Below are positions 19,822-52,324 of a stretch of 64,000 bases of DNA, one piece after another (the first letter of the stretch is position 1; each line of letters starts with the position of its first letter). Position numbers and translations under genes: made by a program. The stretch is from Cladochytrium replicatum (taxonomy: Eukaryota > Chytridiomycota > Chytridiomycetes > Cladochytriales > Cladochytriaceae): positions 124,001-188,000 of the forward strand of contig JAHLKD010000058.1 of NCBI GenBank assembly GCA_025526935.1, in the 5' to 3' direction. The notes beneath the pieces were generated by a model. It was not told the DNA's origin. It saw only the letters and a list, made by a program, of their open reading frames with translations, and did not search any database.

Positions 19822-21921
19822 AATGGACGCCGCCTTTGTTAAACCAAAGCGTAAGGCAGCGTCCGACGCAAGCCAAAGACTGGTGGACAGTCATCCGCTT
19901 GACACACGGAAGCGAAGTCTGCCAGTCCCCAAATTTCAGAGGCGTCCAGCGAGGGGAACAGCATGCAGGACAAACGCAGATGTGTATCAGGACACGGTGG
20001 CAACAAAAGCGCTCGAGAGCCGAGCTCCACATCTTCTTCCAATGACTCCAGCGAGTTGGGCCTGGCTTCTCAGCGTGCACCAGAGCTTCCTGCCGACGTT
20101 AGTTTTGCTGACTCTTCAGTGCGACAGGAGCCTGCAGCTGGATCAGTTCAACCATCAATGCTTTCATCAGACGCAGATGTTGATAGCATGTCGGACTGTA
20201 GAGGTAGTCGAGGCGGCATAGCGAAGGATTACTTTTAGGTTGAAATGGTCTGAGAACATGTTTGGTTGCGAAATGCAAGTGGAGCCAGAAGGTCGATAAG
20301 ACGGGATCAACAAAAAACTTCCTCCGGCATCTGAAAAACCACCAAGGACATATTGCCAGGTCGCTTGGACTGTTGGACATCGTCCCCAAGGGACAACAGA
20401 CATTGAATTTTGGCTCGCAAGAGAAGGAGCAAAACTTTGTGTTCAATCCAGACGTAGCGTGGCGGTCGATTTTGGACTGGATTGCTGCAGACAATCAGGC
20501 CTTTACTGTTGTGGAGAACGAGTGCTTTGTCAGCATGCTGAAGACTTTTCAGCCAAACTATACACCAAAGACGGCAAAAGCAGTGAAGCAAAAGGAGATG
20601 GATCTTTACGATAGGCAGAAGGAGCTCGTTAAAGGTCTGATTGTTGGTTCGCCTTCAAAAGTATCAATAACAGCTGACTGTTGGACATTGAAGAACCAGA
20701 TTTCTTTTCTTGGAATTACTGCCCACTTCATCACGAAAGAATGGGAGCCGCAGGAATTGATGATTCCGATGGTTGGAAAGCATGAAGGCGTCGCCATGGC
20801 TAAGCAGCTTGTCAAGTGTCTGGATGAATTTGGCATGCTATCGGGTGAACGCTTATTGTGCATTACAACCGACAACGGTTCAAACAACTTTACCATGAGT
20901 GCTAAGCTGGAGACGCTATTGGAAGATAGGGATATTGCGTGGTCTGCAGAAACTCAACACATGCGGTGTATGGCACACATTGTCAATCTTGCAGCAAAGG
21001 ATTTTATCGATACATTCGCGCCCCCAGGGGACACAGTCGCAAATGACGATAACTCCAGCGTTAATGTCATAAACCTTCTTCGACGGCTAGTCAGAGGAAT
21101 CTGGTCTTCCCCAAAACGACGAAGCTCATTTATTGATTCGTGCCAATTTGTGAAACTGGTTCCTCTATTACCAATTATCGATGTGACAACTCGCTGGAAT
21201 AGCACGTTCTGTATGGTCAAACGAGCCTTACAGCTACGAGAGGCAATAGACAAAATATGCTGGATTGAAGATTCTTTGAATGATTGGTCAATAACTCCAA
21301 AGCAATGGGAGGTCCTACAGAAGATCCGGGATGGTTTGAGTGTTTTCGAGGTTATATCAAAGGCAATCGAGGGGTCTAGATATCCAACACTTCCGCTTGT
21401 TATTCCATTTTACAACGATCTTATCGATCAACTGGAGGACCTAGAGGAGGCAGAATTGGATGAAACTTTCACCAAAGCATTTCGAAATGCACTAGATAAG
21501 CTGAGAATATATTACTCAATTGCTAAGAGCCCGTATTTAGCAGTTGCTACGGTACTCGATCCTCGTTTTAAGGATCAATATATCGATTTTCAAAGGCTTG
21601 GGAGAAAGATGTAGGAAGGGATCAGGTCACCCTAGTGCGGAAAGACTGGGAGGAATCGTGTAAGTCATGGAAAATCAAGAACAGTGGTGCCGATGTTTTT
21701 GGGAACACGCCAGAACGTCGACACGATTCGAGTGGAGCTTCTGGTGATAGACAGAAAAAAACGGACGCTGAACGCTTGAGAGCCATTAGATCCGTTTTCA
21801 TCTGGCAAGAAGAGATTCCTGAGGAAAAAGATGAGCTGGATCGCTATCTTGGCGATCAGGTACTCCGCGGTATTGATTCTGATGGGAAGCCAATCAATAT
21901 TATGTTAGTGAGGATTTTGTA
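19822..21921 (+). mobile_element. hAT-family transposase, frameshifted
   Basis: hAT (Activator/RICESLEEPER-like) DNA transposase remnant. The main frame 20262-21614 starts in a worn BED zinc finger (KNFLRHLKNH kept, the second Cys of the CxxC replaced) and runs through the RNase-H-like core: ITADCWTLKNQISFLGITAH, CITTDNGSNN (catalytic DxxGSN region), MRCMAHIVNLAAKDFI, DVTTRWNSTF and LAVATVLDPRFK. After LDPRFK a one-base frame change at about 21600-21610 meets a TAG. The continuation is in another frame (21635-21921, VRKDWEE to ELDRYLGD). The final hATC dimerisation block is cut short. N-terminal frames at 19822-20260 are also broken. I found no confident terminal inverted repeats or target duplication. 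Confidence 0.9.
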
Positions 21922-33752: not shown

Positions 33753-36700
33753 TCAAATATTCCTTCTCCGAGAATGATCGCGCTGGAAAGATCCATCCTT
33801 GAAGAGAATACGTGAGATGGTAGAATACCGGAAGATGATTGGGTTTCTTACTCCCCGTGAGAAACTAGCTTTTTCTCCATGAACGTCAGTGTCTCGTCGA
33901 ATTCTCGGAACTCTGTCCTGATCATCTCTCGATCTAAAGTCATCTGACGCATCTTGCCTTCCCCTCTGTTTAAAATTTGTGCTCCCGGCGTTAAATGATG
34001 TCACTGTCCTCGTCTGCTCCTCAGTTCCCCTTCCTTGCATCCTGCCATCGTATGCAACCTGTTCATCTCTCGACCGCCTCTCCGTACTGGGTTGTGAAGG
34101 GGACACAAAGTTTCGTCCCCGGCTGTCTCCTACCCCTGCACTTCGCCGCCTGTCAAGATAAACTCCACGGTGATGTTGGAAAGAGTCGTTTGGTGGTGGA
34201 GCACGACTGTTGTTCTCGTCCCTTGCGAGTTGTAGAGTGTCCGAGGTTCGTAAATCCGTGGCATAAACCTCCCCGGTTGGTGATTTAATGGACGAACGCG
34301 GTAGCTAGTCCAGATGTTTCAATAACATAAACAAACCTATGTCGTTGATGTCGACATACCATTGAGCCTTCTTTTCCGGCCGAAGCGACGTTCAAGCCGG
34401 TCAAACAGCTAAACACGTCGATTTTACTGTTTTCGTGCCGCCCGAACGCATCGCGAATCCATTGTTTAACAATATCACCATCAATTTCCACGATAGGTCC
34501 ATCACTTTCTGTCTGAAGAGATCTTGTTGCCGGTTCGGGTAAAGCGGGTTCGAAAGCATTATGCAGAATGAAGGCTACTTCGCTTTCGACCTTCCGAGAA
34601 GTACGTCCATTCTTAAGTCTCACCATTCGAGGGCATAGCACTCTCCAACGGGATGGCCAGACAGAAGAAGTTCCCCCATCGTTCGGAAGGCCAAAATCTC
34701 TAATGACGCTTTCGATTGATCGCAAAAATGTGAAAGAAATCGACAAAGGTGACCAGCTATCCTTCAAAAAAATATTTCCGGCCCGCACTTGTACAGGACG
34801 AGTCTGGCCCACCACTTCGGAATCACATCCGAGCAAGAATAATTCCAATCCTGCTGAAACCCTCCGATCGTCGTTGGATTCTTCAAGCTGAACAAGTGTG
34901 TTGAGAACAAACTCCCGCGAAGGCTTCAAGAGGTGGCCGGGATTAGTTATTCTTCGAAGATCATGGATAAACCGTGAAGCGACGTCGAAATAGTTGAGGT
35001 GGAACGCAGCGCTCAAGAATTGTCCGACATGCCACCCTTCAAACGTCTGTGGCGAGGAGAGCATTTCCCTTTCCGAAAGCTTCGATATCCGTTCGGCGAA
35101 AACCTGCAACTGGGATGATGCAGTCAACATGGCCCTCTGATACACCATCAAAGCAAGGTCGTAATGACTGGTGTCAAATAGTGCTTCCATGAGAATGCGA
35201 GGGGGGAATGTTCTCATCCAGACATCAATTTCACGCTGTCCAACAATAGGGGTACCGGCTCCACTTGAACTAACAATGCCCACAACGTCTTCCAAAAATT
35301 CGTAGATAGCATCCCGATTCGCACTTTGGAAAAGTGCTTCAAGAACACTCGTCGTCTCTTCGCTTGTTGGGCGATATCCATTTCGTACGGCATCCAGGTA
35401 AAGTACACGAACCCCTTCTGCATTTCGCAATATGTCCGGAGTTGGAAGAGAGCACCTCTCAAAAATCTTGCGGAGTCCAACAAACAAGTTCCGGTAAATG
35501 GCCGTGGTTCGAGGGATTGCTTTTGCACGCATGTACGTCAAAAACCAGAATGCATGATCGAACAGTCCTGCGTCTACGCAGTGGCGTATAAGCCCACTTA
35601 AGAATGTCTGATCCAGAGGCTGATCACATCCCTCGGGTATAACTAACTGACAAAGAACTTCAACAAATTGTCGCAGTTTCCCGTATCGAACGGAGAGTGT
35701 CAGAACTGGGTTAAACGCTGAGTGATCCTTCAGCCTATATCCACTGACTCTCAAGTCCCGAATCACCCTTAGTGTGCCTTCAACATCGCCTGACGAGGAA
35801 TATGCGTAAAGCATGTTCTCAAAGAAAGATGCATCCCGGAATGAGGGTTTCAGCTTATCTCTGATTCCTTCATACATCTGAGGTTATGAATTAGGATGAA
35901 GAATTTAAAAAGGAGTCTTTTCTATACCTTCAGAACGATTGCTGGACTCAATCCATCAGATGGGCCAGATGCGGTTTCTGAGAATAGCTCAAGGACAAGC
36001 TCGTCATTCAAATGATTAGATGGGATCCCCATCCCTTTGTCAAAAACAGCGAAAACGACATCGTAAGCTCGAGCGTACTCCTTTTCTCTCATTAAAGACC
36101 GCAAAAGTTCATCCACAGTTCTACGACTCCACCTTAATGGTTCGAAAGTATTGACTTCGGAATTCTGAGACTTCAATGCACTGTGTTGTTGAGTGATATT
36201 ATTCTTGAATTCGGAAGCTGAGGGGTAATCTGGTGCGTTTTCGGGGTACATGCACAATTTGAAAAGTGCAAACACCTCTGCAAATTGCCGTGCATGAATC
36301 ATCTCTTGGCCGACTCGTTCGATTAATTCTCTTGACTTTGGCTGAAGCCAGCTCTCCCAGAGGTTGGCGGTAAACGGTGCGGACTGATCATCCGTTCCGA
36401 AAGCTTTCACGGCGGCGGAAACAATGTCATAATGGATTGCACCATGAAGGGCATCTGCGATCTCACGGGCGTGCGGCTTCATCATCCATAAGCCATAGTA
36501 GTCTTCAGGAGAAAGTGATTGCCTGTCATCGCGCAGCTTCTGCAACAGTTGCCGCACCTTCTCTCCGGAAGCCAGTTGAACATAACCCCTCAACATTGGC
36601 AAGAAGTCAGCTCGCACAGAGAACTGCGGTAAGTTGCCTGGTTTCATTGAGTCGGCCACGAGCTTCCCTGTATCGAGAAGCATGCTAAAAGCTTCCTGCA

Positions 36701-39700
36701 TGGCATCGAGATCGTTCCGGTAGGTCGCTTCCACGATCACTCTTCGACAGGATTTCCGGAATGATGATATTTCCTCCTTTCCTTCATAAGAGACACCGCC
36801 CGTGCCTTTCCATGGCGCCTCGGTCAGCTTTGATCGCAAAATTTTGATGGCCGAGCTCAGGGGCGAGGTTGAATAGCACAAACGCGCGACATCTGTTGCG
36901 TAATTTCGAGCGCTGATGATTCCATTGTCGACATTAAGTTCGGGAGCCTTCGGTTGCACCGGAATCTTATCGACGACAATCGAATCTTCAAGATGTCGCC
37001 TTTTTGTCCGCTCGTTCGCAGGTTCTTCTGGAGCGCTTCGCTTAGAACTGTATGCTGGTTGATTGGACTGATAAGTAAACGCCTCGAAAGATAAAGATAC
37101 TTACTTTGCTTGCTATGATCCTCTTTTGCGTTCACCACCCGTTCTCCTTTCGCATCTGTCGATATCCTTAAATTTGGACGTGGACTTTCAAACCTATCCG
37201 AATCAAATCCCGCAAGAGCTGCTCGCTCTGGGTGAACCTTCTGAAGAGACTGTGTGGATCTGACAGCCACAGACGTGGTATCGCTAGCCACCTCAGCATT
37301 CGAACGTTTCTCCACCCTGCTCGGTGAATTTGCAGCCTTACCAACAGCAGGAGATCGTGTTTCAGCATCCTCAAACTGCTTGGGTTTTGCGGCCAATGAA
37401 ACCATTTCAATGTCTCTGTTGCTATCCCTTCGAGTATTTTCATCTACTTCAGATCGCCGCTGAAATTCATCTACCGTTCTTGCCCTCGAGCCAGCTCGTG
37501 CGGAAACGTCACTTGAGAATCGACGATCGTCCCCACTCTGTTTTGCGTTTTCTTGATGACCATTGTTGGAGGTTCGTCGTGTGTCCCTTTGACCATCGTG
37601 CGAAACATCACGTTGCATCTCTCGGTTGGCTCTCATTTGCGAGTGCGACACAGGGCGCTGATCGTAACGCTTCGAGTCCGCGTCCTGCCGCGCCTGGTCA
37701 CGCGACGATGCCTCGTTGTGCTCGTGTTTAGAATGCCTGAGCGTATGCTCCGATTGTCGATCCCTCCCAGAACGGTGCCCTGGACTCTCTCTTGTGTCAT
37801 ATAACGGGTTACGCAAACCACTTAATTCCCTCGTCCGTCGACCTCCCTCAGCACGCGACCCGTGCACAATGGGAGAATTCTTGTGCGAATGCTCGGTATC
37901 GTCATCTAATAACAACCTCAGAAACTGAAAACATCCTTTTTACAATCCTCTCGTACCTGTATCAAACTGCATCATGACTTCACCTTCGAGCGATTTCCTA
38001 GACTGAGGTGGCTTTGGGGTTTGCCGAAGTACTTGTGCATCAGACACATCAACACTGGTTGTAACGTTTTCCACAATTGCCCCGTTTGAACTAAGTTTGT
38101 CTAAATTTCGGTCACGTCCATCGTCTGATTCATCGTCATATATAACAGGATAGTCTGGAATGCGTGAGTGAGTTTGGCGTCTTCAAATGGAAAGGTACGA
38201 ACCTTCATCTCCGAAATTTCCAGAAAACTTAGAGGTCGAGTTAAACTGATCATCGCCAGACACATCTCGCATGAGAACATCATTACTGGCTCCCAAATTC
38301 CCCTCCCGTGTTCCCATTTGGCTTGGATTCGGTAAAATGTTTTCCTAAAAGATTCGATCCTGATTAGCACCACAGGGCCAGGTGATTTGCTGACTCCATA
38401 CCGCTTCAACTGTACTCTCACGGCAATTGCTCTCGGGAAGCCGGCTGGCAAATTTATTTTCGGCTCTCGTAACTGAATCACCATGTGTGGTACACGACAT
38501 CTGACTTTCTCCACTTTCTTTCGGTAAACCTTGGGGAGAATTGGATGGTCGTGCAGGGGTGCTATGCGAAAGCTCACTGCTTGTTTGCATCAGTTGCGCT
38601 GTTGATTCACGGTGCTCTGCCGATTCGGCACTCAAAGGCAACGAAGTTGGAAGTGCTCCGCTTTCTGAACCCACTTCAGATTCCGAATTTTTCCGGTCAT
38701 CATTTAGTTTTCCAACTCTCCGCAAACTATCTTCGAAGCTCGGAACTTGAAATGTTGGTGATGTTGTTCCAGAGCTCTTAGCATCGGATTGGCCTACTTC
38801 CAGTGTGAGATTGTCTCAGTTACCAGAGCTGCACCGAAGCTCACCGTTCCCGAAAGTCATTCGGTCTGCAGACCTTATTCCACGATCTCCACGGCCGTCT
38901 TGTTTGTTGTAACGTCCACGTCCGTTCCCGCGAAAATAATCGCGACCACGCGAAGTTCCGTACTCATTTCTCTTTCCCCGACCTCCGTCACTGTTGTATC
39001 TCGGTTTCTAGGATTTCAAAAAAATTGATCCCAAATTGAACCGAACGTTTTAGTTGCAGAACTCAACGACGCAACGAGGTTTGAAGAAAAAAAACACAAA
39101 AAATGTTGCTGTTGGGAATTAAGCAGAGGCTTCAAATGATGATGATCTTCAGATAGATAGCTCCATCGGCATTGTGATAATCTTCAGTTGGTAAGTCATG
39201 CATCCAATTCGAGCGCGAGCAGCAATCAAAAGTCGCGAATCTTCTAACACGGACATTTCCACCAAGTCAACAATTCGCTGGTTCCGCTTACGGATATGGA
39301 GGCAATCACGCACTCAAGGTTGTCGAATGAGAACTAAAATTAGACAGGCCTGGGTTGATCGACAACTCGCCAGCATATAAGCTTGGTCAATCTTCATATA
39401 CTATCAGGTCGCTGCACAAGACGTTCTCAGGTGATTTAATCGACGCCTCCATAATCCTAATCAGTGATAATACATCCAATCTTCTTGCTCTTTCCATCGA
39501 CCGATGTCCACCGCAGTTACAGAACAGAAAGCGGGTAGAAATAGGGTGTGCTGAATGCACGTCGCATAAGTTCTAAGACAATCACCTGGAATCCACTATT
39601 ATTAAAATCCTCATCTCCCCCATACGTCGAACTATGAAGATGGTTCTCATTGTGAGATCGCTTCGATGGATAATTTAATGAGAAGCTCGAATACCGCTTG

Positions 39701-39843
39701 TCCGCAGATCCAAAATCTCCACGTCGGTAATCGCCGGTGTCACTATTGGAGCCATGGGATTGTGAGAATCCCCGAGCGTTCTGCTGATCTGAGCGGTTGG
39801 GGGTCGTCACCACGTTGTTCCTAACGACTCTGCGCGTGCTCAT
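33753..39843 (-). CDS. Large protein: disordered RG/SR-rich N-terminus plus PPR-like helical-repeat region
   Basis: Nine exons (39586-39843, 38845-39007, 38402-38793, 38203-38344, 37957-38154, 37105-37905, 35928-37054, 34337-35877, 33753-34221) join in frame to 1696 residues. The first ~630 residues are disordered, with an RGG-rich patch (GRDYFRGNGRGRYN) and many SR/RD runs, as in RNA-binding proteins. Residues ~690-1540 are alpha-helical with pairs resembling PPR/TPR units (for example FFENMLYAYSSSGDVEGTL, then FWFLTYMRAKAIPRTTAIY). The tail is again RD/RG-rich. No named family is recognised; RNA binding is an inference. The first intron (~580 bp) is unusually long and may hide another exon. 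The last splice is the least certain. Confidence 0.7.
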
Positions 39844-40393
39844 TTGGGAAGGGCTGAGTAGAAGAATTGCAAAACGAGGCTTTGCCTGAAAACACAAATA
39901 AAAGAGAAAGATCAAAACGAGAAATATGTTTCGGCAATCAAACCAATAAATATACTTCATTGGCTTCACCGAGGATTGAAAAAACCAATGGAGCTGTTTT
40001 CAAATATATCAGCTCTTGGGATATATCACCTCTTGGGAGAAAACAAACAAACAGATAAGCCTCCGCAAGGCATATCCTGTCCGTACATGCTTTAAGCGAT
40101 CAGCTTTTTGCACTAAACGTTCTTCGAAGGCGGGTGCAGGTTACTTAATATCAACTGCTAGCACTTATTAGCACTTGTGAAAACAACACAGCAACACAAT
40201 CCCACATCATTGACTTCCTCAACAGTAATTAAAGAGCTGAAGATCAGTGAGCTGCAGTTTATTTTTGATACCAGATCTGTTAGACGCACAACTCAGTCGT
40301 GTGATATCAAAGTTTTCTGCGCAGCCTCGTGCCGCAGTGCGGCGTTCACTTCCATTTAAGGTGGTGCTGGCCCAGATCCACTTCGAAGGAAGA
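39844..40393. promoter_or_regulatory. Divergent upstream region
   Basis: A 550-bp head-to-head gap between the 1696-residue protein (-) and the rvt reverse transcriptase (+). The rvt frame is open upstream of its chosen ATG to about 40247, so the rvt start could be earlier. No clear motif stands out. Confidence 0.4.
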
Positions 40394-43300
40394 ATGGTTT
40401 CGTATGCTGAACTGCGTGATTTGGCTGTGCTCAAGCTAAAAGAGCTCGAGAGACAACGTGAGAAGCTCGAGAAAAGCTACTCTGCGACCTTGGAGTCTGC
40501 GGATGCTGCTTCGTAAGTGTATTGAGTATCATCTGCAATGTACTAAATCGCTTTACTCAATAGGAATCCTCGAGAGAAATTGAAAGCGTTATACAGGGGT
40601 ATTCAAGCGACAACCTTTGCCGACAGCCCCCTCCACCCTGATGTCGATAACTTGGAGAATTTGTTGGCAATATTAGAAGCTACCAGTGCGAACGGCAATT
40701 CGAGCACTCTTGGCCGTCACCAAGGGGTTGTCGTTCAAGGATGGATCGAGAAACTCATCTTGGAGATAAACAGAGGCAAGACTCGAACCAAATATGTAAG
40801 ATCACTTATGTAAAGTTGTCTCAATGTCTGCTAAATGATGAACTAGGCTTGGCTCTTCGGGAAAATCCTTGAGGAATGGTTCGAAGCCTACGGTTCAGGT
40901 CAAATCAGCGCTGCTCGCTCTTTGGATGATGATGATGAAGAGGACGATGACTACGTCAGGGTCCGATCGTCTCAGCCCAACGCACCGGCAAGGCCTACCT
41001 CGAACCCAGAACGCGAGCAATTCTTCAAAAAGCTCTCAGGGCTCTCAACAGCTGTCCCAGAATCTGATTACGACATTTCTGTCATCGACGATGTGCTGAA
41101 AGGGAAAGAAGAATGGATTGCTCCCGTTCGCAAGACCGTCAGAGAGTATGCAAAAAAAGGCATCAGCAAGAAAGTCACCGCGAACGAAGTTCGCGCCGCC
41201 GTGGACTCCATCTGCCGTGATAATCTAGTCGATCAGACTGCCAAGCAACAGCTTCGCGATCTTGTTTCGGGAAGCGATATGCTTGTCAACGAGTACGTCG
41301 GTGTACTTACAGTGATGCTCAACAATGTGGACGAGTGGGACTGGCCCGCAGGGTCCGGTGAATCAGCTACGGCGAACAAATCAGACGCTTTAAAACAAGG
41401 CGAAAAGAAAGAACCTCCCACCATGCGAGTTCGACGTAACCGCTCTTACAAGTACAGGGCATTCATCGACGAGGACATCCTTACCGCTGTATTCCTGCAA
41501 ATTGTAGGTGTTCGTTGGTCGGTTAAGCTTAAGGCTCATCTTCTTTCTTTCATGAGTAATTATGAAAGTAAGTTTAACCGTAATTTCGAACCCATGTTGC
41601 TCATTGGAACAAATTCCTTAAGATCGAGTTCTGGGCGATGCCTACAAACTGGCAAAGAAGATCAGGGGCGCTCCGGAGCCGCAGCATGACGGTGGTTTCC
41701 AAAGCAGCTGGCAGTCGATGTTGAAAAAGCGCCAAGCAGCTCACCAAAATATATTTTGCTGCTCCCTCCCTGATACTGCGGAGACGCAAAGTACTTCCTC
41801 TGCTTACGGGGGTGGTGGACATTCGGCAGAAGGTGGTGCACCTGCTCACCCCACGAAAAAGCAGCAGTGCCTGAACATCATAACTGCTGAAGTTCAACTG
41901 GCCAAAAACGTCGACGTTGATGGAAGCGTCACCGTTGTCGGGATCGACATTGAGAACTTTTATCCGTCGCTCCCTCATTCTTTGTTGATAAAAGGTTAGT
42001 TGCTCGACTTGTCATATCAGCTTGTAACTAACATCATGCTTCATTAGTACTTGAGACGTTCGGGTTTCCCAAGGTGTGGATTTCATTCTTTCACCGCTAT
42101 TTGACCCCAATCGTGCACTTGGATCCTTCGCAATATGCAGACGCATCCAAGGCAAAACCGATTGGACGAGGTATTCTTTTGGCCCATGCACTTTCGCGGA
42201 TGCTGTCCGAGATGCTTTTGTTCTTGATGGACATTCATGTGCTGGAGCAATCCCGCGGCGCTATTAAGCTAATGCGTGTGGTGGACGATATCTTCTTTTT
42301 GCACACGGTTGGTTTTCTCTTCTCATTCGGTTTTCTCTGATTCAGCTGACTTGGTTTCCAGGAACAAAAATTGGTTGTGTCCGCGTACAACAACTTGATC
42401 AGCTTCCTCAAGCGATGCGGCCTTCGTCCCAATGCGAAGAAGTCTGGCTCCGTTGTCATACCGTGCTACGAGGTGACTGACGGATCCAAGACCGTTGCAC
42501 CAAAACCCGCTGGTGACATTCGTGGACCAAAACCTCTCCCTCAAAACCCTGTTTGCTGGGGTTTACTGGAGCTCTGCTCCACCGGGTTCTGGGAGGTGAA
42601 GAAGGACGCCTTCGCGACTATCCTCACATCCATGCGCAATGATCTGGTCGGGTCGCCTTGGCAGCCAAACCAGTCCATGCCGCTAACGGCCTACCCGATT
42701 CTTACGTTTATCAACATCTACAACTCGTACAATCGGTATCTTATGAAAATGCTGTCAGCATATCCAACTAGCTATGCGCTCGGTGCTCGCCACATCAAAA
42801 ACGTCGTTTTGCCTGCACTCATTGAAGTACAGGACACCGTCGTTGAGGGCGGCGTGGTGGCGTACTTGCAGCGTGTGATCAAAGAGCGCTTCGAGTTCCG
42901 CGCTGGTGATGGCAATGATGAAGAGCAGCTCGCCGAAGCTTGGTTCTATTGGCCCATGTAATTGAAATTCGCCGTCTAGAAGCTAATTTTTGCAATGTTT
43001 AACTTTCTTCGCCCAGTACCGCAGGCGGCCTTGCAATTACTCACCCTCTCATCACGCTCAACGCCATCTCAGAGGGAATCAAACGCGAAAGCTTGACGAG
43101 GGTGATTCGTTTCGAGGACATGAAGCGCGATCCGTTCGGAAGAGCGCGAGCGGTGCGAGACGGAGTTGTGTACTATGGATCTGAAGTCACGTCTCGTACA
43201 GCCAAGAAAGATAACAACAACCAGGATGACCAAGATAACGAAGAAGGAGGTGACGAAGATGCGGATGTGGCAGTGGAGGAGTCGTCGGATGACGAGGACG

Positions 43301-43994
43301 AAAACAAGGTTGAGGACGAAGATGACGACGACGAAGAAGACTATGACGACGACAACGACGTTGATGTTTACCAAGAGAGCGATGACGAGGAGACCATTGC
43401 GAGAGCACAGGCTAACCGTGACAAAGAGGAGCAGTGGTGGTTTGTAGTCGACCCGGACACACTGAAACCGCTCAGGGAGAACGAAAGCTCTGCGGGGACT
43501 TCTCCATCTACTCCGCAGAAAGAGCCCATGTTGCTTTGGGTTCCCCGGAAGTGGGAGACAGAAACCGCTAACTATTGGGGGAGCCAGTATTCGACTCTAA
43601 CCGATACGGCCGACCCAATGCAGCCAAAGAAGACTGGACAGGTGCGTGGGTCGTGTTCATATTTACGTTGAGTGCCTAATAGAGGTGCAACTCAGCTCGA
43701 GCTACTGATCGAAGAGTTTGTTGACCGAGGCAGCGATGTCCGCGGGAGCAGCTCGAAGAAGTCTGCTCCGATCACCAAAAGCAGCTGGGGTCGTCTTGGG
43801 AACTACTGGAAGTGGATTATTTGCACTTACAGGTAAATCTCCTTTTTCTTGGCATACAGAATCATATATTCACAGCATTTCCTTAAAGCGAGCAAGTTCT
43901 CCAAATGTTCGGATCGCTTGGGTTGACGAGTGCCCAATTGATACCTTTGGCTCTCATCAGCGAAATCCGTAAGCAAAGCACAATGGACTTATGA
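40394..43994 (+). CDS. rvt: Cellular (non-mobile) reverse transcriptase, rvt type
   Basis: Nine exons (40394-40512, 40564-40795, 40847-41567, 41623-41994, 42048-42307, 42362-42957, 43017-43641, 43696-43832, 43889-43994) join to 1055 residues with every phase consistent. Residues 1-40 form a coiled coil (LKLKELERQREKLEKSYS). RT motif A is GIDIENFYPSLP with Asp466. Motif B-like is IGRGILLAHALSRMLSEM. Motif C is RVVDDIFFLH with Asp561-Asp562. Downstream is the rvt-type thumb/C-terminal block WFYWP...AGGLAITHPLI, an acidic insert (about 820-890), then WKWIICTY and QMFGSLGL. There are no integrase, endonuclease, gag or terminal repeats. Intact frames and eight introns argue for a host gene. In the known rvt class, single-copy fungal members make nucleic acid but have no settled role. 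Confidence 0.85.
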
Positions 43995-44147
43995 TGGAAC
44001 AAAGCTCCAAACAGAGGAAAGTGATATATACTTTTGGTTTCAACCGCAGTAGCGGTATTCAGAGTGAAGGGTCAATGTATTTTGTCGCAGTTGAAAAACA
44101 AACCTCTGAAACCTCAAGCTAAATCAGGTGTCCTGCCGAAAGCACGA

Positions 44148-46673
44148 TTAGGTTATAATGAAGTTCAGAAACTGTGTTGTCAAACCTCGGAGTGGTGCCG
44201 CAACTGCCGCAGTGTCGTCAACTTCTACTTCATGCAGGCGTCCCTGGAAGCGATAAGTGATAAGAAGTCGTTTGTTCTCTCCCAAACATGGATCATAGAA
44301 CCCAATAATGTAAGCCTAGCAAAAAGCGGGTAAGTATGATGACTATTCAAGGGGAAAAGCGCAACCTTTGAGTGACCACCACTGATGTGCAGCTGAGACT
44401 GATTCACCAAAGCCTGAACGGGAATGGTGACATCAATCCAGCTTTCTCCGGAGGTATTTTCTTCGCCGCTCAACACGAAACTTGGCAGGAATGAATATTC
44501 AGATGCCCTGTTTCGGCGTGTTGGCGGAATTTTTCCGTAAATAGCCTCAACAATAACCAGGCCTGGTTTTCAATGTCAGCTTGCGCCTTTTCACATTTCT
44601 TGTGCCGATCCTACCATTACGACTTTCCTCTGCTTCGAATTTTCTTGCCACAGACTCGCGCATAAGCCGTACCGCGTCTTCCGCCTCATTCTTCCGTTGT
44701 TGGAGTATCGCCGCATTCTGCTCACGAACTTCCCGCAATTTCTTAGCAAGCCAATTTCGACGCTGTGGAGCCACAACAAGCCTGTCGAACGCGAAAGAAA
44801 TGCAAAGTGGCACCGCCGTCGCCCAAATGGCAACTTGAACATCGAGCTGTGGCGACAGTAGCACTGGTACAGCAAAGCGTTGCCCGAGTCTGGTGAGCCT
44901 AAGCTTCAGTGTGACGCCCCCGACAGTTCCGCAATCAACTCCGACACCAACGCGGATGTGCTTGGACACCCTTCGATCAACAGCGACCGCACCAGTCACA
45001 CCACTTCCAGTAGACAAACCAACCGATACTCGTCCGCGGACCCGTCCTTTTGCGAACGGTCGGAAAAATGAAACTTGGATGTGACTCTCCTCAAGCCCAG
45101 CCTGCACCTCCAAACTCATTTGCTGCGAGGATTCGGGATTGCGCCGCACGAGGCCAATCGAGCACGCTGATGATTCATTGGCTTGCTCTGACGCTCCCCA
45201 TGGTCCAAGAGAGTATTCACCCGTACGATACGTAAGGTATCCGGTGATCATGGATGTCAAACGTCGTCCTGTGACAATGACCAACGGTGGAGGAATAGAG
45301 GTGGTCGCAAAGGTCGCATTTACTGTGACAAAACTTCCTTTGGGCGATACCCGCAATATCAGCTCCTCCGAACCATTTATGGGTCTCTGTTTACTCACCT
45401 ATCTCCAGTAAAGTTCTTCACCACCTTCGCTTGCAGGAAGCTTGCTTGGCCAACAGAAGCTGCGAGCTGAAGGGTGTCAACTGAATCCTTCGCTTATTCT
45501 GTTTCGGTGTTGTACCTCGCCCCATAACAATGGTGAATGAACATGCCTAAGCGTTCCCATCACGTTCGCGACTCCAACCCCATTTCTCACAATTGCCGTG
45601 CCCTGAACGCCAAAGTCTGTTTGTTGGCTGATTTTCGTCTAACGGAAAGAGTCAGTGGAATGGTGAAGAATAAAACAGCAAGCAAACGGACATCCCAAGA
45701 ATGCTTAATTGTCGCCTGCTTCATTTCAGGAAGCGCACGCAAATAGTCTCCATCTGAAAACCATCCCCCTCTGGTAGTCGGTGGAAGGGCAAACCCAGCT
45801 ATCGTTCTGCCTGCTGCTCGCCTCCGCCGGGGTAGTCGATCGTATGGATCAAAAAGTCGTGTGGCATCAAATGCAACTTGGATCTCGCCCTATTACACAT
45901 AATTAAAAACTAATTTAGAATATTGTGGAATTCTAGTTCACCTTTGATTTCACCAGATTTTCTGCATCCAGCGACTGTCTGTTCAGGGATCAGCGGAAAT
46001 TCTGCGTTTACCGAACAACTGCCTTACCTATCCTTTTTCATTCGCTCAAACTCGGCACGAATCTGATGAATTTTTATACCCAATTCAATCCAACTAATTG
46101 CAAATCCTTACATCATTCGGGTTTGATCTGTTTGCCGAGACATCCCATGAGCTTGAGAGGCCTTCGAGACCGTACAAATCGTAAATATGCCTCTTTACAG
46201 GATCGCTGAGGACTAAAAATGGTGTGAGCACCTTACCGAATCACCGTACGCACATGTTCTTACCATCGTATGCACGTTGCAAAGCCTGAAAGCGACCTTG
46301 TGCAGCTTCCTAAGAGAAATTCACAACAGCAAGTGAGCATGGGGTTCCGGTGTGAGAAAGATGCGTGGAATCACACCTTGTCCGCAGGTGTAAGATGTTT
46401 GTCGGGGTGAAAAGTGACACATAATCGGCGATATGAAACCTTTATTTCGTCTTCACTTGCATTTCGATCCAAGTTCAATACAGCGTAGTAGTCGAACGGC
46501 TTTGGGACTTCCTCTCTTTCCCGTTCCAGCCTGTCCTCCAACTCATCTTCGAGATCGAGATTGCTCCCTAGGGAAGGAAAGTTGGGCACCGCATCTCCAT
46601 TTAATGGATATGGCGATGCGAACGGCTGTTCCTGTTCCTGTTCCTGCCTCTGTGGTTCTGGCTCTGCGCTCAT
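44148..46673 (-). CDS. DNAJC11: DNAJC11-like J-domain protein
   Basis: Mitochondrial J-protein linked in animals to the MICOS/MIB cristae machinery. Eleven exons (46377-46673, 46264-46309, 46112-46212, 46028-46062, 45942-45978, 45692-45889, 45516-45602, 45399-45466, 44615-45333, 44366-44562, 44148-44315) give 650 residues in frame. The J domain starts at about residue 75 with FDYYAVLNLDRNASEDEIK; HPD is intact and YDVLSDPVKRHIYDLYG follows. The central beta-rich part has LFDPYDRLP and NVMGTLRHVHSP. The C-terminal DUF3395 domain has LVIVEAIYGK, IDVTIPVQALVNQSQLHI, GFYDPCLGENKRLLITYRF and the final HEVEVDD. It is convergent with rvt (153 bp between stops). Confidence 0.92.
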
Positions 46674-47695: not shown

Positions 47696-50600
47696 CTATT
47701 TTGCTGGTGTTTGAGTTTCAGCCCGACAACAATTTGAATGACCTCGAAGCCAGTGTGCTATCTTCATTAACAAGCATTTTAGTTTGAAAGTTGTTCTTGC
47801 TAAAAGTAACGAACCTGGCAATTTTTCCCGCAGTACCGCGTGGATTTGCACCCTGCACATGCGAATGTTTTCCCAGTAGATCCACATGCAGTACATTCGC
47901 GCGCAAGTGCAAGTACACTCGGTCCCGCGCTGCCTCCACTGCTGCTCAAATCATATTGTGTCCCGGACTTGGGTTGGCCATTCGATTGCGATCGAGCAGT
48001 CGGATTCGGAGCAAGTAAACCATGACTCAAGTTCATGTCTCGAAGTGGGCCTTGTCGTACTGGGTCAAGCCCGTCGATCTGCCTTAAAATGCTGCTGGGG
48101 ACCATAGACCACGGTTGTTTTCGTACATCCCGGTCCCCAGTAACAAGTAAATACTTGACTTCAGCGCTTATAAGGCTCTTTAGACGGGAGTTAACGACTA
48201 CAGACCGGTCAAAAGGCAACCAATTTGTAATCTTTACATGGCAACTTACTGGGCGGGTAGACCGGACACCGTAATGCTTCGACTTCCAGAGCTTTACTGA
48301 AATGCTCGACGAGCTTTCTCACGCTGTCAAGGGCTAAATAACATCCAGCAATGGATACGTGCGCATCTGCGGCCCTCTTCATGAAAAAGACGGTCAGATA
48401 CGATGGATTAAAAGTAGCTGGTGACGACTCACCCGCCCATCTGCTCCCGCGATACTGATGTATTTCTGAAAGCAAGAGATAGCTTTGGTTTGGTTATCAT
48501 CGCCCTCCATGTTGCTTAGAACAACCCCTTTCTGATACCAGCACTCTGCCATCAGCGCGCTTCGAGGAGTCGCCGGTGGAAATCGGAGCTGATGTGTTTG
48601 AGAGGTTGCTGGTCCAGCGGATGCGACGGCTGCACCGTCGTTGGGGGACCCAAACGAGGAAGGATTGTTCGTGCTATTTTTGCCGTTGTTCTTTTTGGAA
48701 TTGCTCACAGCATTACTTGTTGTATCCAATTCAATCGCAAGATCCAGATCGAGAATCGCTTCATTAAACCTCCCTAATTTCGCCCACTGTGATGCTCTCA
48801 CCACATATGCAGCAATCGAAACGCCAGCAAGATCAGGCATCTCAGTGAGTGAAAGTAAAGCGGGAATCGATTCATGATGTTCATTGGTCACGCTCCGCTT
48901 CGGTTCTTTCCCAGATCTCTGGTTTTCTGAAGTCGTCTTCGTCAGATCAGAGGCGGCGTTATGTGATGGTGGGTAGTGTGCTTCCCATTCTGCTACGGCC
49001 ACGATTACATTGGTGAGATAGACAATGGATATCTCGGGAGGTCTTGAAATCATGTTGATGAAGCAATCGAGTAGTAGAGCGTTTGGGGCTTTACGATTGT
49101 TTGTAAGTACAGCTTGTGCGGCAATTTCTGCGAGCAAGCGAATGCGATAACTTCGAGTGACAGTACTAAGCTGCTGGTTGGATGGAGTGCTGCATGAGTT
49201 TTGTTGCTGCTGTTCTGAGCGGTCCATTTGGGCTCCCTGGGCTGTGGCTGACCTTTCGGGCGAGAATTTGGACGAACCTTCCTGTTGTTTGTTTGATATG
49301 GGTACTCCGATGTCCAGCATACCTTCAAAAGACATGAAACCGAAAAGAAACGCGTTGACAGCCTCATAAAAACGACCAGTGACTGCAAAAGATTCCGCAT
49401 TCAGGAACCAAGCTTTTGAACAATAAAGGCGCACGAATGTGGTTGGATGAGATTTCCGGAAACGCTCTAACTCTGACAAACTAGGAAAAATTGGGTATGT
49501 ACCATGGAACTTTGCAGGCTGAGACGAGATTGAATGTAATTGTTGCGTTTGGGAAGAACTGACACTTGGAGCCGAAGGGTTTGTTTGGGTCGATCCTTTG
49601 TTTTTTGAGACAGTTGACCTTGATTCGCCAGTATTAGCTGACTGTACTGCCGTTTTCAGTTTCTGTGCGGATATCGACTCTCTTTGATCTGTAGTTAAAG
49701 TTTGAGGCAATGCACTCGATGGCGTTGAGTACTGCAGCGATTTGTTCATCTTGTGATGCATGGACGAGAGTAGACTGCGCAAATCCTTGAACGGTTTGAA
49801 CCCTAGATCAAGCTCGTCCCCTGCAAGTCCGGCACAGAACGAATCATAGATCGCCTCTTCCCATTTTCGCGTGATCAGCACCATTGATGGCGGTGGTGAA
49901 CCGCATCCATTACTTTCCGTCACTATCCGAAGGCCGGAAGCCGATTGCTGGAAAATTTTTCCCGATTTCAACAAGTTTGAAAGATCGTGTTCACCAGAAT
50001 TATTGCTTTTATGTTCAACTGATTCTCCTCTAAGCTCTGTCTCCGGCGCATCAAAATGTTTCGAAGCCCTCGACCTGGATCGATATCGAAGAATGTCAAT
50101 ATCTTGTTTTCCAAACCTTGGAATGTCTCCAGCTCCTATGGATGTAGCTGTCAACATTGATGCTTTTCCACAGAGGTCATCAAGGCTCGAGGGAAACTCT
50201 TTTGAATTGATCAGCTCTGCAGTTGATAATATGGCTTTCCAATAGAGCGGGCTAACGATTGTCCTACAAAATACCAACCCCTCCCCAAAAAGTACGGTCA
50301 AAGCTTCCAGTTCCGACACTGGTGCGACTGCCCTACCAAGAACAGCAGGTTCGACCAGGGAGTCATGTAGTGGGGTGGATATATTGAATGGTCGAAGCTC
50401 GCTTTCAACAGAGTTCCAAACCGGCTGTGATTGCTGATTTATGCTGAAAATGGTTGGACATCCAACATCGATGATGTTTTGCTTCATGCGCTGGCAGCTA
50501 CACCGATTAGCCGCGCGACGCCAATGCTCTGCAAGCCCGTGATCTTTCTGGGTTCCAATTCCTTTCTGGTACATGTTGCTCACCGCTAACTGGGCAATTT

Positions 50601-52324
50601 GCAACCCTTGCAAAGCGGCTTGATGAAGCCAGTAAAATGCTCGCTGCATATCTGGGGGAGAGAGGTTTGGTAACTGTGCTTCGAAGCGTGACTTGTTGAA
50701 ATTCTCTTTGGTGGGAGACGCACTTGAACACGTTGAAATCTCCGAGGAGTTGAAAGCATCTGCCTCGCTGTCTCCACTTATGTCGGTATTTTTGGAACTC
50801 AAAGTAATATCATTCCCTTCGGTCAGTCCAAGAATCAGGTATCCATCCGCGTACATTCTTCCTAAAATAAACTGCGCCCGCACATTTCCGGCCTTAGCAG
50901 CGCTCGTAAGCCAAAACTTCATCGACTTAGGATCGACTTCCAACCCGTGTCGGGTAGTTGAATATGCTAACGCCATATCGTGAAATGATTGCGGTGTTCG
51001 CACTTGATTCGCAGCAGCCTCAAGAACTGGAAACGTTTCAAATGCGGAATCCAGAGAGAGGATAGACAGCCGCACAACTGAAGGAAAGTGCCCTTGACAG
51101 GCAGCTATCTTATACCAACTCTTTGCTCGGTGATAGTCAACGTGGATACCTTTTGAAAAGGATTAGGAGGATGAACGCCGGAGGTTCCGAACGCTAACCT
51201 TTTCCCATTTCGTACATTTGTCCGACTTTGAACTGAGCGGCTAGAGAACCCATTTCAGCGGCCTCGTAGTATAGTTCAAAGGCAGCTTCTTCGTCTCTCA
51301 GCACACCAGCCCCAGTTTCGTACATATAAGCCAGCAAAAGCAAGCAGTGACGGTTTCCACGATAGATCTCGATCGACCTTCGTAAATGTTGGAACGCATT
51401 CTTGTAACAAGCATTCGTACCGACTCCTCGTCTATACCAGTCACCCAACACAAATAGAACTTGGCCGAAGTGTCGAGCTACAAACCGCTCTTCAAACACT
51501 ATTGAATCCTTTTCTTCCGCTCTTTCCGAGATTCCACTTCGCGCTTTTTGTGTACTTCGCGAAGCTTGGATTCCCTCCGGCGATTTTTCATCAGTCCGAT
51601 TAACTCCGACATCCCCTGACGAATTCTGACGGTCGCTTTTTGAGTTCACACATGTCTCGATATCAGATAAATCTTCAGCCATCTCTGCCGCACGCAGAAG
51701 CATCGAAAACGCTTCCCTGTCGTTTCTTTCTACAAAACTACCGGTGTGAAGACACATAGCAAATATCGCCATAGCTCGGTATTTCTTCGTCTTAATTGCT
51801 GTGTTTGCCAACGAAGCGAGGAAAGACGTGAGTGGGAGCTCTGCATAATTCGTTGGGGCGGGTGATCTTGTTGGATCGTGTTTACGGCCGTTTGCACTTT
51901 CTTTCGTTGACACCTTCTGTTTCTCCGCCGAATCTGATGGTACATCAATAGGTGCGGTATAGCATAACGACCGAGCCATAGGAAAATCAAGAAGTTCTGC
52001 GAGTTCGAGGACTTTCGCATGGAACTTTGGGTTGCTCACGACCGCTGGTGCCGAGCCTTTTCCCATTATTAGCTCACGAAGAACCCTGTTGCAAGGATCA
52101 ATCCAAACGTCTATACTAGAAACAGAGTGAGTGAGTGATCCGCAAGGAAAAAGAAGTTTATCAAGAAAGAGGATGTCCACAACAACATGCAGTTCAGACG
52201 TTGATCTTATCAAGGAATACAATGCGACCACATGCCTTTCATAAGAGCGATTGAATGTTTATCGAAAAGGCATTAACTTGATTCACCAGCTCATCCGATC
52301 CAGCCATGCAAGAATGTTCTCCAT
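47696..52324 (-). CDS. SEL1-repeat protein with C-terminal MYND zinc finger
   Basis: Six exons (52287-52324, 51199-52235, 48433-51149, 48250-48376, 47815-48197, 47696-47761) join to 1455 residues in frame. The protein carries SEL1-type helical repeats: GRYRRGVGTNA-like (about 260), YMYETGAGVLRDEEAAFELY, AAQFKVGQMYEMGKGIH, AQFILGRMYADGY, and SNMYQKGIGTQKDHGLAEHW. Long Ser-rich linkers lie in residues ~480-1000. The MYND finger is at about 1405-1450: CTACGSTGKTFACAGCKS, RYCGKNCQ, then across the last intron AHWLRGHSNCC, giving the full Cys/His set. SEL1 plus MYND suggests a scaffold with a protein-interaction finger; targets unknown. Confidence 0.85.

Follow-up and report, generated by a model that had tools for sequence, protein, structure and literature searches.

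The rvt genes, a class of cellular reverse transcriptases (RTs), are said to have been described in 2011. Two published accounts present them as single-copy RTs shared by bacteria and eukaryotes, with a large loop 2a (PMC5718144, PMC10680173); the first of these names rvt as the sole RT group common to the two (PMC5718144). According to the second, rvt aids bacteria, fungi and rotifers under amino-acid starvation and certain antibiotics, and carries out non-templated polymerization for which the catalytic residues are needed. The 'RVT' of two further papers is something other than this class (PMC4920403, PMC8934634). Here we analyse a gene of the chytrid Cladochytrium replicatum that we assign to the rvt class. 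It lies in a window of 64,000 nucleotides (contig JAHLKD010000058.1, positions 124,001 to 188,000 of the forward strand), to which all coordinates below refer. The genome has 22 chitin synthase matches and four matches, at one place, to the flagellar protein RIB43A; together with the short introns these point to a probable zoosporic fungus, although other flagellated organisms that make chitin would fit too. A search of the literature found no description of this gene.

The original prediction, made from the DNA letters, had read the gene as a single-copy cellular RT of the rvt class. This holds: the protein matches one bacterial family over its full length, with both flanking domains, and is encoded at one locus. 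In Pfam, RVT_1 was the sole domain above its cut-off (32.2 bits, cut-off 29.6; residues 441–597 on profile positions 52–190). A profile of 806 positions, built from 12 full-length bacterial homologues with the Cladochytrium protein excluded, matched the latter at 365.6 bits (E 6e-111); the match falls into three pieces, collinear with the profile, that span positions 10–790. The same profile gave 40.9–54.3 bits with 11 bacterial proteins that match in the RT core only, and no match at E 10 in the open reading frames of eight RT loci of the Cladochytrium genome or in 20 shuffled versions of the Cladochytrium protein. In a tree of the RT core (30 rows), the Cladochytrium protein and the 12 bacterial homologues were split from the 11 bacterial RTs and six own-genome elements with support of 98/99. 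The corresponding branch received 100/100 in a reduced tree of 20 rows, from which two bacterial RTs, five near-identical own-genome elements and three near-identical bacterial homologues had been dropped. On this sequence evidence the gene belongs to the known rvt class, the bacterial family being equated with rvt because published descriptions and further details of the class fit it, and not through named rvt sequences.

The genome contains at least 150 ordinary RVT_1 matches and is thus rich in retroelements, and the RT core of the protein matches RVT_1 and, weakly, models of group II, Drt3a and retron RTs. Both points would suit a domesticated or decayed retroelement RT of LINE, LTR, group II or retron type. 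Nevertheless, the NCBIfam scores were far below what those models demand (group II, 31.1 bits with 300 needed; retron St85, 17.8 bits with 235 needed), and the best matches of the protein are full-length members of one bacterial family rather than LINE, retron or group II RTs. Profile and tree set it apart from the 11 bacterial RTs and the six own-genome RTs; no endonuclease, RNase H, integrase or maturase domain was found in Pfam at E up to 5; and the gene has introns and no detected flanking repeats. We therefore reject a retroelement origin on the grounds of profile, tree and domain content, and hold it to be very improbable.

Mobility of the gene itself found no better support. The absence of mobile-element parts and flanking repeats, as originally claimed, was borne out: there is no companion domain, and no flanking repeat of 16 nt or more was found within 39844–44150. 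The 50.5-Mb genome holds one rvt locus, not multiple copies, when searched with 831 residues of the Cladochytrium protein (next matches, E 0.66 and 0.78). A homologous protein of the bacterium Dictyobacter vulcani also found this locus alone at E ≤ 1, with a best score of only 25.8 bits, so that a distant paralogue could escape. Phages yielded no relative at E 1e-3. Among plasmids, 27 records matched. In none did the match reach 80% of the query; for the 12 records listed it lay in the RT core and did not exceed 20%. With the Cladochytrium protein as query there were six records, each with 17% coverage. One scan of viral contigs with two patterns gave 33 pattern matches and no relatives. A mobile rvt was rejected, these searches having found no relative in phages or viral contigs and no plasmid match over 80% of the query. 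As a separate observation, LINE-like RT copies of this genome (L002–L008 among them) are nearly identical, with many matches at 110.4 and 84.1 bits and six compared, which suggests that at least one element family, and perhaps a second, has spread recently.

Spliced by hand, the gene runs on the + strand from an ATG at 40394 to a stop codon ending at 43994, and encodes 1055 amino acids in a frame that stays open through all joins, without an internal stop. The eight introns and nine exons read originally were thereby reproduced, and the splices are backed by homology at every exon edge. All eight introns are GT–AG and measure 51–59 bp. A YTRAY branch-like motif is present in five of them, in intron 3 near the 5' end only, and was not found in the other three. 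For all 16 exon edges, the 20 residues next to the edge scored above the 99th percentile of shuffles, taking the best of the 12 bacterial homologues; this control is lenient, since the alignment had been fitted to the real sequence but was not remade for the shuffles. The weakest edge was that on the 5' side of intron 3, where the best homologue gave 16 against a 99% control of 12 and the mean over the 12 homologues was −2.8. An alternative donor for this intron at 41508, in frame and giving 1035 residues, was set aside, as it removes residues for which the aligned bacterial proteins have counterparts. The start codon falls within two residues of the bacterial starts in the alignment. We conclude, from sequence alone, that the rvt locus is a real, intact gene and not a transposon.

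The blocks on which the original prediction had relied are all present in the spliced translation: D466 in motif A, VVDD at residues 559–562, WPITAGGL from 765 and YWKWI from 1012. The columns of the catalytic D466, D561 and D562 are each D in 12 of the 12 bacterial homologues, and those of Y471, G523, R558, G588, N592 and K595 are likewise invariant. Y1012 and Y1020 are invariant in a five-row alignment, and their counterparts in D. vulcani, Y759 and Y767, are so in all 12 proteins. Residues 365–440 are poorly aligned, and RVT_1 finds no match for its fingers part. On either side of the RT core, the N-terminal piece of the profile match (71.8 bits) places residues 11–140 on bacterial positions 10–127, while the C-terminal piece (48.3 bits), which begins in exon 7, places residues 944–1047 on positions 699–790. 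The N-terminal domain, originally read as a coiled coil, is probably helical: a structure model of the D. vulcani protein, whose N-terminus is homologous to that of the Cladochytrium protein, has a long helix at 4–37. The C-terminus of this model (722–810) has a pLDDT below 50. Foldseek and VIA-align returned no entry named rvt among the matches listed for the model, which does not prove absence, and the best match in the PDB to a five-row profile scored 40.8 bits and was restricted to the RT core. By sequence search, then, no solved structure covers rvt.

An acidic insert of some 70 residues had been placed at about 820–890, and 36 of these 71 residues are D or E. It lies inside a 136-residue stretch that is missing from the bacterial proteins, each column being empty in at least 11 of the 12, and whose acidic core (832–895) has 37 D or E among 64 residues. 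Seven further insertions, of 9–31 residues, distinguish the Cladochytrium protein from the bacterial ones, that at 137–167 holding another acidic run; its own gaps are of 11 and 5 residues.

Scanning genome contigs with the 346-residue core gave 31 pattern matches, two of which encode relatives: the full-length, 810-residue D. vulcani protein and a fragment encoded on a Ktedonobacteraceae contig. The former can be aligned from end to end: BLASTP gives 225 bits with 25% identity over 808 columns, and a further C-terminal piece scores 50 bits. In the class to which Dictyobacter belongs, 47 genomes were searched and seven have a match at E ≤ 1e-6, with four full-length open frames and three fragments. 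A 400-genome sample of its phylum, Chloroflexota, contains at least 26 matches at E ≤ 1e-10, comprising at least 12 near the whole profile, at least three fragments and at least 11 in the RT core only (≤48.5 bits); these genome counts are lower bounds, at most two candidates per genome having been scored among the matches listed. For one of the 12 bacterial proteins, the reading ends at a TAG stop that falls within the profile match, close to its end. Three bacterial genomes have only pieces of an rvt-type gene, which are broken copies or contig ends. The ratio of non-synonymous to synonymous substitution (dN/dS) was 0.066–0.153 in all 15 pairs of six close bacterial homologues, and 0.58–0.64 in three distant pairs, for which dS was close to 1; the remaining 48 of 66 pairs were too saturated.

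In both core trees the Cladochytrium protein grouped with two proteins from the class of Dictyobacter (99/96; 98/96 in the reduced set), as would follow from horizontal transfer between Ktedonobacteria and the fungus. Several findings speak against this. An approximately unbiased (AU) test does not reject bacterial monophyly with the Cladochytrium protein outside (p 0.105), and the unrooted full-length tree is equally compatible with that protein as the outgroup. Moreover, the tree program flagged it as a long branch in the core, reduced and full-length trees; the gene carries eight introns; and its G+C content at third codon positions (GC3), 0.575, is inside the range of seven neighbouring reading frames (0.425–0.672). 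We do not claim a bacterial transfer because of the AU result, the full-length tree and the GC3 value, and consider such an event improbable. That the gene is a bacterial contaminant was rejected on account of its introns and of its eukaryotic neighbour, DNAJC11.

Among PADLOC families, RT_UG37 matched the Cladochytrium protein at 356.5 bits over profile positions 10–669 of 778, the next family scoring 44. Five of five members of an rvt-type alignment also match RT_UG37, with a best E of 0. The profile searches thus suggest that RT_UG37, which PADLOC lists among the DRTs, is the family of bacterial rvt; a literature search found no paper equating UG37 with rvt. Through this match a eukaryotic rvt gene is tied to a bacterial family that is classed with the DRTs, which raises the question of whether the Cladochytrium protein is a host defence enzyme that, like bacterial DRTs, makes DNA in response to viruses. 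DRT9, which makes homopolymer DNA in a protein-primed reaction on an RNA template (PMC12483538), contributes structures to the fold matches of the Dictyobacter homologue. However, PADLOC mixes known and candidate systems, and the literature search found no defence test of UG37. No relative was found in phages or in the one two-pattern scan of viral contigs, and published rvt work points to nutritional or antibiotic stress (PMC10680173). We regard a role in defence as unlikely.

The gene is intact, occupies one locus and encodes a catalytic RT palm flanked by the two domains specific to the family. Taken as a whole, the analysis makes it very probable that this is a functional cellular rvt gene; the activities that we ascribe to it would be those of its class. 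In rvt proteins an N-terminal coiled coil mediates multimerization, and protein priming of a bacterial rvt has been assigned to conserved C-terminal tyrosines. Most likely, the Cladochytrium protein carries out untemplated, perhaps protein-primed, nucleotide addition in stress. It would multimerize via its N-terminal helical region and would need no external template. Synthesis may start on its own conserved C-terminal tyrosine or tyrosines, or on free ends, and short nucleotide tracts would be added with Mn2+ at the site formed by D466, D561 and D562. The gene is expected to be induced by amino-acid starvation or translation block and to aid survival. A literature search found no explanation of the cellular role of rvt products for any rvt.

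The residue at motif A Asp+5 occupies what we take to be the steric-gate position of retroviral RT. In ascomycete rvt, that of Neurospora crassa included, it is reported to be a small residue; N. crassa RVT reportedly prefers nucleoside triphosphates (NTPs), and a bacterial rvt reportedly uses deoxynucleoside triphosphates (dNTPs). The Cladochytrium protein has Tyr471 here, as do 12 of the 12 bacterial homologues, and its motif C is a bacterial-like VDD. Because Tyr471 stands at the steric-gate position, we predict use of dNTPs, and tentatively propose that the protein is a DNA-tailing eukaryotic rvt, that the substrate changed within fungi and that the acidic insert perhaps regulates the C-terminal priming domain; as a whole this proposal has somewhat less than an even chance of being right. 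The substrate change within fungi would follow only if the ascomycete proteins do have these properties.

The immediate neighbours of the gene are of eukaryotic type downstream and less clear upstream (Table 1). A DNAJC11 gene had been named as one neighbour, and matches to the beta-barrel domain PF22774 (160.1 bits) and the J domain PF00226 (43.1 bits) agree with this; PF11875 stays under its cut-off (23.1 bits, cut-off 27.1). The other neighbour had been described as a large disordered, putatively RNA-binding protein sharing a divergent promoter with rvt. It is indeed divergent (− strand, 33753–39843, putative start 39843), and its start region is RG- and D/R-rich and looks disordered; it is possibly more than one gene. 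The putative RNA binding is suggested by composition and by one sub-threshold PPR_long match in the reading frame 34285–35883 (18.1 bits, cut-off 27). Further away in the window are a hAT-like transposase remnant or gene (20244–21614, + strand), whose RNase-H fold, at 26.3 bits, narrowly misses its cut-off of 27, and a − strand region (47800–52258) with Sel1/TPR-repeat coding stretches (48394–52258) and then a MYND finger (47800–48318).

Table 1. Features of the rvt gene and its surroundings, in window coordinates.
Feature	Coordinates	Strand	Evidence or content
rvt exons 1–5	40394–40512, 40564–40795, 40847–41567, 41623–41994, 42048–42307	+	in-frame join, edge homology
rvt exons 6–9	42362–42957, 43017–43641, 43696–43832, 43889–43994	+	in-frame join, edge homology
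N-terminal rvt domain, residues 1–140 (exons 1–2, start of exon 3)	40394–40915	+	profile piece, 71.8 bits
Exon 4, residues 358–481	41623–41994	+	poorly aligned stretch, then motif A VVGIDIENFYPSL (D466, Y471)
Exon 5, residues 482–568	42048–42307	+	motif B region (G523), motif C RVVDDIFFL (D561–D562)
Exon 6, residues 569–766	42362–42957	+	motif D GLRPNAKKSG (K595), thumb-like region
Exon 7	43017–43641	+	GGLAITHPLI block, then 136-residue insertion (residues 793–928)
Exons 8–9	43696–43994	+	C-terminal rvt domain, YWKWIICTY (Y1012, Y1020)
Intergenic stretch, 550 bp, from putative start of divergent neighbour to rvt	39844–40393		upstream ATGs at 39926, 39988, 40087
DNAJC11-like gene, downstream of rvt (approximate limits)	44225–46673	−	Pfam matches

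Compared with known systems, the Cladochytrium protein shares with group II intron, R2 and LINE RTs the palm fold and RT core, as seen with the profile or a bacterial homologue; it differs in having no maturase, endonuclease or element structure, the match being confined to the RT core. PADLOC RT_UG37 differs in that it models bacterial proteins and is listed with the DRTs. N. crassa RVT, the function of which is described in PMC3520738, resembles it as an rvt class gene in a fungus. The Chloroflexota rvt-type proteins have collinear N-terminal, RT and C-terminal domains, and the catalytic and C-terminal tyrosine residues, in common with it, whereas the Cladochytrium gene has introns, the 136-residue insertion with its acidic core and the seven smaller insertions. 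A Cladochytrium rvt with a bacterial-like active site would offer a comparison point for substrate choice.
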